A DNA stretch of 31,689 nt from Candidatus Aenigmatarchaeota archaeon (GTDB taxonomy: Archaea; Aenigmatarchaeota; Aenigmatarchaeia; Aenigmatarchaeales; JAHLMR01): positions 1-31,689 of the forward strand of contig JAHLMR010000006.1 in assembly GCA_018920255.1 (NCBI GenBank). The letters run 5' to 3'. Positions 18,181 through 29,141 of the stretch are shown piece by piece. A program made the position numbers and the translations under genes. Position 1 is the first letter of the stretch. Every line of letters starts with the position of its first letter. The notes beneath the pieces were generated by a model that saw nothing but the letters and a program-made list of their open reading frames with translations, did no database searches and was not told where the DNA came from.

Positions 18181-18254
18181 GCTCCCGTGGTCTAGCTTGG
18201 ATAGGATGGTAGCCTGCGGAGCTGCAGACCGGGGTTCGAATCCCCGCGGGAGCG
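18181..18254 (+). tRNA. tRNA-Arg (anticodon GCG)
   Basis: Cloverleaf checked by eye: acceptor GCTCCCG/CGGGAGC; D stem GTCT/GGAT with G18-G19 present; anticodon stem GTAGC/GCTGC (one G-U) with loop CTGCGGA, anticodon GCG reading CGC/CGU; 4-nt variable region; T stem CGGGG/CCCCG with loop TTCGAAT; discriminator G at 18254. No intron, and CCA is not encoded (the next bases are CTA). An A/T-rich TATA-like stretch lies near 18148-18156, about 29 nt before the 5' end, suggesting a very short leader. The Rnp4-like reading frame begins 13 nt downstream. Confidence 0.95.
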
Positions 18255-18266
18255 CTATGTGATTTT

Positions 18267-24484: not shown

Positions 24485-25297
24485 TTAAAATTTATAACCA
24501 AGACTTTCAAAAACTCTTTTCATAATTAAAGCATCTTTTTCTAAAAGAGGACTTTCATTTATTATTGTTATATCTAGTTTTCTTTTAATTATTTCTTTTG
24601 CTAATGGTTCAAATTCTGGTTTATTATGAGAAATTGGAAGATGATTTTTTTCATTTCCTTTTCCTATACCAGCTGCTGTCCAATTTATTGAAGAAAAGTG
24701 AGAGTGAATATGTTTAAATTTTTTAATTTTATCAAATATCTCAGAATAATCTATTTTTCCACCATTTCTAGCATAAATATGTGCAAAATCAATTACTGGC
24801 ACACAAAATTTTAATTTCTTACAAACTTCTAAAATTTCATCTATAGTTCCCCATTGACTTAATCTTCCAGTTGTTTCTAGACCTAAAATAATATTTTTAA
24901 AAGAGTTTTCTAATTTAGAAATTTCTTCAATCATTGCGTTTGTACATTCCTGTGAATTTTTTAATCCATAATATCCAGCATGAATTACAACAATACTAGC
25001 TTCCATAGCAACTCCACGTTCAGCAGATTCTCTTATCATTCTATGGCTTGCTAATATCTTTGATTTATCTTTACTTGTTAAATTAATAAAATACGGTGCA
25101 TGTATACTTAAACTTACATCAAGCTCTTTAGCAACTTTTCCAAGCTCAATAGCTGCTTTTTCTGACATTTTTACTCCACGTACAAATTCAACTTCCATTG
25201 CATTTAGACCTAATTCTGAAACTGTTTTTACCCCGCAAATACTTGTACGTTCTTTAGCAGAAAGAGGAATTCCTGCTGGTCCTATTCTTATTTTCAT
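24485..25297 (-). CDS. nfo: Endonuclease IV-like TIM-barrel protein
   Basis: A 270-aa AP-endonuclease-family-2 TIM barrel. Metal-binding positions are visible: LSIHAPYFINL, VVIHAGYYG, ILGLETTGR, PVIDFAHIYARNGG, FKHIHSHFS and ITIINESP. These match the His/Glu/Asp set of endonuclease IV, which incises at abasic sites. Length is typical (about 270-280). The ATG at 25297 follows a TATA-like box (25320-25329) by about 27 nt. Related sugar-isomerase barrels share the fold, but the HAPY...HAGY...ET pattern favours a DNA-repair enzyme. Confidence 0.85.
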   Translation of the reverse strand: MKIRIGPAGIPLSAKERTSICGVKTVSELGLNAMEVEFVRGVKMSEKAAIELGKVAKELDVSLSIHAPYFINLTSKDKSKILASHRMIRESAERGVAMEASIVVIHAGYYGLKNSQECTNAMIEEISKLENSFKNIILGLETTGRLSQWGTIDEILEVCKKLKFCVPVIDFAHIYARNGGKIDYSEIFDKIKKFKHIHSHFSSINWTAAGIGKGNEKNHLPISHNKPEFEPLAKEIIKRKLDITIINESPLLEKDALIMKRVFESLGYKF

Positions 25298-27115: not shown

Positions 27116-27146
27116 ATAATTCACCTTTATGGTGGGGCCAGAGAGA

Positions 27147-27247
27147 TTTTCTGAAACTTCTTCGAAGCTTCTTTTTCAAAAAAAGAAGCTTCAGCAAGAA
27201 AAACTGTCTTTCTTGATGAACCTTCTTTTTCTAAAAGAAGGTTCTTC
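27147..27247 (-). other. tRNA-Trp T-loop insertion (101 nt) made of three hairpins
   Basis: Lies between tRNA positions 59 and 60. On the minus strand it folds into three consecutive hairpins: 27244-27218 (12 bp, left arm GAACCTTCTTTT, loop AGA), 27215-27195 (7 bp, left arm CAAGAAA) and 27192-27164 (13 bp, left arm GAAGCTTCTTTTT, loop TTG). Arms are pyrimidine-only against purine-only. Presumed to be an intron removed by the tRNA splicing endonuclease. Confidence 0.65.
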
Positions 27248-27268
27248 TTTGAACTCCCGTCTGCTGGT

Positions 27269-27311
27269 TTCTTCTTATCATCTTATCTCAAAGCTCCAAT
27301 CAAAAAACCAA
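27269..27311 (-). other. tRNA-Trp anticodon-loop intron (43 nt)
   Basis: Between positions 37 and 38. The exon/intron stretch GCTCCAGT can pair over 8 bp with ATTGGAGC inside the intron, hiding the anticodon, as in many archaeal pre-tRNAs. The 3' splice site is placed by the cloverleaf, not by a visible bulge-helix-bulge. Confidence 0.65.
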
Positions 27312-27371
27312 CTGGAGCCAGCCATCCTACCTGGCTAGACTATGGCCCCTTTTAAATTATTTAATAATTTA

Positions 27372-29065: not shown

Positions 29066-29141
29066 TGGAGCCCTGGGCCGGATTTGAACCGGCGACTTGC
29101 CGCTTACAAGGCGGCCGCTCTACCAGCTGAGCCACCAGGGC
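29066..29141 (-). tRNA. tRNA-Thr (anticodon TGT), CCA encoded
   Basis: Cloverleaf by eye: acceptor GCCCTGG/CCAGGGC; D stem GCTC/GAGC; anticodon stem GCCGC/GCGGC with loop CTTGTAA, anticodon TGT reading ACA/ACG/ACU; variable AAGTC; T stem GCCGG/CCGGC with loop TTCAAAT; discriminator T, as expected for archaeal tRNA-Thr; CCA at 29068-29066. No intron. 49 of its 73 body bases are G or C. It starts 26 nt after the stop of the glycosyltransferase gene. Confidence 0.97.

Follow-up and report, generated by a model that had tools for sequence, protein, structure and literature searches.

The tRNA-Trp gene of this Candidatus Aenigmatarchaeota archaeon is interrupted within its T loop by a 101-nt segment that belongs to a family of 16 similar insertions in the same genome. 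The insertions are very probably bulge-helix-bulge (BHB) introns that EndA and RtcB remove and whose copying from one tRNA gene to another has gone through the T arm. This reading is based on the intron family, its exact site, the register of pairing, the covariation at position 57 and the genes for EndA and RtcB, all of them found in the sequence, and from these we infer splicing itself, the bonds that are cut and the mechanism of copying.

The window, meaning the whole stretch of 31,689 nucleotides analysed, carries tRNA-Trp(CCA) on the minus strand at 27349-27130 (220 nt). The parts of the gene, in the order of transcription and with the means by which each was located, are:

27312..27349, minus strand: tRNA-Trp exon 1, nt 1-37, 38 nt, with anticodon CCA (exon joining)
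27269..27311, minus strand: intron of 43 nt at 37/38, the canonical position (ARAGORN with introns allowed)
27248..27268, minus strand: tRNA-Trp exon 2, nt 38-59, 21 nt, with 3' end TTCAAA (exon joining)
27250..27253, minus strand: 5' strand of the putative BHB helix, nt 54-57 TTCA, followed by the bulge A58 A59 / G (register test)
27147..27247, minus strand: T-loop intron of 101 nt at 59/60, one of the 16-copy family (genome search, exon joining)
27218..27244, minus strand: hairpin 1, 12 bp (perfect-pairing search)
27195..27215, minus strand: hairpin 2, 7 bp (perfect-pairing search)
27164..27192, minus strand: hairpin 3, 13 bp (perfect-pairing search)
27149..27152, minus strand: 3' strand of the putative BHB helix, AGAA, followed by the bulge AA / T60, with 3 bp and an A-A mismatch (register test)
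27130..27146, minus strand: tRNA-Trp exon 3, nt 60-76, 17 nt, with CCA encoded (exon joining)

When the 101-nt segment is cut out, the exons join into a canonical tRNA, for which the ARAGORN call is tRNA-Trp(cca) with an anticodon intron of 43 nt; when it is left in, neither ARAGORN nor Rfam calls a tRNA at the locus. The coordinates, lengths, exon joins (38, 21 and 17 nt) and encoded CCA of the original prediction, which left the strand unstated, are all correct, and the exons keep every stem, as it had held. The second, uninterrupted tRNA-Trp gene that it had named as a sign of a pseudo-tRNA was absent both from the RF00005 matches to E = 10 and from a search with a model of the 5' half of tRNA, in a genome that is 94.6% complete. 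The canonical 37/38 intron of archaeal tRNA-Trp is present here as well (43 nt), and the T-loop intron is a second and independent one. The 37/38 introns of Trp (window 27269-27311), Leu-TAA and Leu-CAA (L035, L047) have similar ends (ATGATAAGAA...), and may also be a copied family. The other two tRNA genes in the window, Arg(GCG) at 18181-18255 on the plus strand and Thr(TGT) at 29066-29141 on the minus strand, are uninterrupted.

The three hairpins of 12, 7 and 13 bp that had been described in the segment were recovered at the same lengths. Their arms had been called purine-only against pyrimidine-only, which is true of the inner parts of the arms; the outer 4-5 nt are mixed (GAACC/GGTTC, GAAGC/GCTTC). 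Since the arms were located by requiring perfect pairing, that perfection was not counted as covariation, and the variety of arm types is descriptive only. The minimum free energy of the segment is -37.6 kcal/mol, compared with -23.6 +/- 3.5 for shuffled sequences (z = -4.0), and 1 of 200 shuffles folds as well. Given that the hairpin arms resemble one another, the minimum-energy structure pairs some of them between different hairpins.

A 103-nt stretch of the Trp intron was used to search the genome, which comprises 552,063 bases on 25 contigs. More than a dozen strong matches were obtained, 77-92% identical to the query, and all of them lie in tRNA genes, directly after the T-loop TTCAA and before position 60. 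The resulting family consists of 16 introns of 53-129 nt, which form one BLAST cluster and interrupt the T loops of 16 different tRNA genes, for 11 amino acids: Trp-CCA, Leu-TAA, Leu-TAG, Leu-CAA, Lys-CTT, Met-CAT, Ser-TGA, Ser-CGA, Ser-GGA, Gly-TCC, Gly-CCC, Thr-GGT, Asn-GTT, Arg-TCT, Arg-CCT and Phe-GAA. The Met, Thr-GGT, Asn, Arg-TCT and Leu-TAG genes were identified by eye because ARAGORN misreads or misses genes with further introns. Chance is excluded as the origin of the 101-nt segment, because the family recurs at the same site in 16 different tRNA genes. An assembly artefact was considered and dropped, given that the copies stand in 16 different contexts on 9 contigs, and a weak match to the intron elsewhere in the window, at 24509-24548, was taken as chance.

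Short introns occupy the same 59/60 site in Thr-CGT (24 nt), Cys-GCA (15 nt) and Gly-GCC (15 nt). With the 16 members of the family, they bring the tRNA genes interrupted at this bond to 19 of the 39 found by combining Rfam tRNA matches to E = 10, the home-made 5'-half model and reading. All 19 regain a normal T loop of 7 nt when the intron is removed. The original prediction had supposed that such an intron would be unusual in this kind of genome; instead it is one of 19 here, and introns in the T loop are frequent across the order.

Because the introns are alike while the bodies of the tRNAs that carry them are not, the family cannot be put down to duplication of whole tRNA genes; similar introns in genes with unrelated bodies are what defines a transposed intron family. 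The hairpin core is more similar among the introns than are the 3' tails. In two pairs of genes the similarity extends into the exons. The Lys-CTT and Met genes have in common an unbroken tract extending from the variable loop (AAGGTCGCGGG) across most of the intron, and the Phe and Arg-CCT genes, about 3.6 kb apart, have in common the intron and the T stem GCGCG, a T stem that recurs in the Phe gene of one relative (G003). These shared flanks, as read from the two gene pairs, point to recombination through the T arm. Copies would then move between tRNA genes at the DNA level, probably through gene conversion or recombination for which the conserved T arm is the anchor.

Alternatively, true BHB introns could have spread at the RNA level, by reverse splicing, reverse transcription and recombination rather than by gene conversion of DNA. 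The exact reuse of one bond in unrelated tRNA bodies is what such a route would leave, but reverse splicing alone does not copy the exon sequence that flanks the intron in Lys-CTT and Met and in Phe and Arg-CCT, and spread through RNA is a possible though rather unlikely course. It is improbable that the segment is a general mobile repeat, similar to a MITE, that has tRNA T loops among its targets. The element is multi-copy, hairpin-rich and highly identical within the genome, as such a repeat would be; however, its strong matches all lie at the same bond in tRNA T loops, with none elsewhere, where the weak short matches (E > 1e-5) were inspected in part.

The preferred reading, BHB introns copied by way of the T arm, also covers how the segment would be removed. 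In the register proposed, the intron extends from after A59 to before nt 60, and nt 54-57 (TTCA or TTCG) pair with four nucleotides near the 3' end of the intron, the last of which is followed by two more intron nucleotides, leaving 3-nt bulges on both sides. In this register TTC at 54-56 is fully paired in 18 of the 19 introns of this genome, with helices of 3-4 bp, and in at most 4 when the register is slid by up to 5 nt. In four relatives, where the test used 40 introns from an earlier parse than the one behind the totals quoted below for relatives, 38 fit the register and at most 6 fit any other. Over the five genomes 56 of 59 introns fit, whereas no slid register suits more than 7; these counts overstate independence because introns within one genome are related. 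The partner of nt 54-57 is variable (AGAA, GGAA, AGAG, TGAA, CGGG, TGGG), and position 57 covaries with it: A-T 24 times, A-C 3, G-C 10 and G-T 1 (Fisher p = 6e-6), with 4 of 20,000 label shuffles reaching the observed number of pairs, although relatedness within genomes inflates these values in the same way. Between genomes, none of 1,262 pairs of introns is similar. The motif of the Trp intron is relaxed, with 3 bp and an A-A mismatch and no inner helix stacked directly on the bulge. The placement of a T-loop intron at 59/60 is thus the best reading of the locus, and the BHB motif that had been proposed as a check at that site can be drawn there.

In the precursor, the T stem and the short helix, formed by nt 54-57 with the last nucleotides of the intron, would flank the two 3-nt bulges. 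EndA would cleave both bulges and RtcB would ligate the exons to give a normal T loop, TTCAAAT, such that the hairpins would be cargo between two splice sites.

The possibility that the gene was inactivated by a repeat inserted into its T loop, leaving a disrupted pseudo-tRNA, is suggested by the failure of standard programs to call a tRNA at the locus. The same verdict would apply to 19 of 39 tRNA genes, and these include the sole genes found for Phe, Asn, Cys and Trp; moreover, the exons retain every stem and 18 of the 19 introns conform to the BHB register, which makes loss of function highly unlikely. Since the sole Phe, Asn, Cys and Trp genes all carry T-loop introns, those genes must be usable. 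The lineage apparently must splice the T loops of its tRNAs to make protein.

Interruption of the T loop is widespread in the order, with different sequences. A DNA search of 58 relatives with the Trp intron element detected no copy, and the T-loop introns that the 5'-half tRNA model located in relatives differ in sequence from the family described here. Among same-order relatives of other families, introns at the same site were found in 22 of 24 (G001), 12 of 19 (G005) and 6 of 21 (G003) tRNAs parsed. In G021, which belongs to the same class, 3 of 7 tRNAs parsed have them (8 unparsed), and one of these introns is hairpin-rich, 119 nt long and located in an apparent tRNA-Trp. Genome G005 has its own repeated intron families, at least three of them, which occupy four, four and two tRNAs; the parse behind the totals above adds a fifth tRNA to the first. 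The T-loop introns throughout G001 are short. A plausible history is that many tRNAs carried a short ancestral T-loop intron, into which hairpin cassettes would have been copied later.

Comparison with relatives also bears on whether the mature tRNA could keep the hairpins in a larger T loop, where they would have some structural role. They are stable and perfectly paired, as a structural element might be, but the insert varies from 15 to 129 nt at one site, the splice-motif register and the covariation at position 57 would be useless without cutting, and sister genomes of the order have plain 7-nt T loops; retention is therefore very improbable. A self-splicing group I or group II intron can be dismissed, given that 15-129 nt is too short and that an Rfam search of the window at gathering thresholds finds only tRNAs.

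The genome encodes both enzymes required by the preferred reading, removal of BHB introns by EndA and RtcB. Two adjacent and different genes for EndA subunits lie at C11:57154-58214 (L006: 57154-57666 and about 57672-58214), and RtcB is also encoded. The genes for tRNA-Phe and tRNA-Asn, each with a T-loop intron, directly adjoin the EndA subunit genes. Alignment with the EndA of M. jannaschii (1a79) places the catalytic Tyr in both subunits, the catalytic His in the second only and Ala at the catalytic Lys in both. One subunit with and one without the catalytic His would make this an (alpha-beta)2 EndA, a two-subunit type known for broad specificity, in keeping with the earlier suggestion that such an intron may need an endonuclease of broad specificity and that the type of EndA should be checked.

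The Tyr-His-Lys triad, however, is incomplete in the catalytic subunit, which has Tyr and His but Ala for Lys. The catalytic-Lys position is Ala, Ser or Thr in all 22 order-level EndA proteins aligned (2 from this genome and 20 from relatives, L213-L236); among the aligned proteins, Lys is found there only in the M. jannaschii reference and in a 455-aa protein of G019, a relative within the class. According to a review, the triad is conserved in the four archaeal EndA types (PMC6379350), and Ala substitutions of the catalytic Lys are reported to abolish cleavage in two other enzymes (2025 paper, PMC12397907). The absence of this Lys from EndA poses a genuine difficulty for the splicing reading. 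Another Lys, conserved and lying two residues beyond the His (EHTKW), may make up for it, although this is a guess.

The number of EndA genes varies within the order. The single-EndA genomes G008, G011 and G012 have no T-loop intron in 24 tRNAs parsed. Plainly recognisable tRNAs number 19, 19, 28, 20, 4, 16, 29 and 17 in the two-EndA genomes of the order versus 34, 43, 43, 28 and 29 in the one-EndA genomes, fewer in the former (one-sided Mann-Whitney p = 0.005), a comparison that is confounded by phylogeny, as all single-EndA genomes belong to one family and completeness varies, and in which G015, with two EndA matches of near-equal score on two contigs, was counted as having one gene. It is conceivable, if doubtful, that the hairpin introns of the T loop act as cassettes that spread themselves, homing on the T arm (GGTTCAA) common to all tRNAs, and load lineages that have a two-subunit, Lys-free EndA, such that intron load and enzyme have co-evolved.

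Large-scale transposition of tRNA introns has been reported for Thermoproteales (Sugahara et al. 2008 among the sources), as described in PMC4090602 and PMC4033280; 59/60 is a listed noncanonical position of tRNA introns, and 71 introns are present in 46 tRNA genes of Pyrobaculum calidifontis (PMC8450103). The system described here is like that of Thermoproteales in that similar introns lie in different tRNA genes of one genome, a single tRNA may have several, noncanonical sites such as 59/60 are used, splice sites are of the BHB or relaxed BHB kind, and EndA has two subunits. In contrast to Thermoproteales, it belongs to an archaeal lineage with small genomes, 59/60 carries most of the noncanonical introns, the hairpin cassettes reach 129 nt, the intron families differ between sister genomes with no shared sequence, and EndA is without the catalytic Lys. 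Judging from the sister genomes, which share no intron sequence, descent from the intron families of Thermoproteales is unlikely. ARMAN-1/2 and Nanoarchaeum equitans are similar in their small genomes, in the multiple introns of their tRNAs, in their relaxed BHB motifs and in an EndA that is heteromeric or multi-unit, but have an intact Tyr-His-Lys triad, and T-loop hairpin families are not described for them (PMC4033280, PMC6379350). The ARMAN EndA is a three-unit fusion, whereas here the subunits are encoded by two adjacent, separate genes. In searches of open-access papers for tRNA introns in DPANN and related groups, no report of such T-loop intron families was found; that this archaeon itself belongs to DPANN is a guess based on its genome size and gene content.

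These introns make gain of tRNA introns testable in a second lineage, where some sister genomes have fresh, unrelated families at one site and others have none, a division that follows EndA gene number. They would also explain the strikingly low tRNA counts returned by annotation tools for these genomes, which distort estimates of completeness and codon use. Cells that seemingly rely on extensive tRNA splicing, yet have an EndA free of the catalytic Lys, offer a natural way to test the three-residue mechanism that is generally accepted.

At the 5' splice site of the family, the GGTTC of the tRNA, the first GAACC of the intron and the GGTTC at the end of hairpin 1 form a series, GGTTC-GAACC-GGTTC (for example in Leu-CAA, L047), which looks like the result of a fold-back error in copying the T arm. 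The gene for tRNA-Leu(TAG), L042 (G000:C19:4500-4780), is best read by eye with three introns, at 30/31 (16 nt), 37/38 and 59/60. In that for tRNA-Leu(GAG), L083 (G000:C18:42429-42544), a hairpin-bearing insertion fits 53/54, between the T stem and the T loop, a position shared by none of the others. Extra D-loop nucleotides that resemble mini-introns near position 20/21 occur in some ten tRNA genes (Met, Thr, Asn, Glu, Pro and Val; L037, L041, L044, L050, L076, L084, L115, L116, L117 and L118), with a hairpin in L116.
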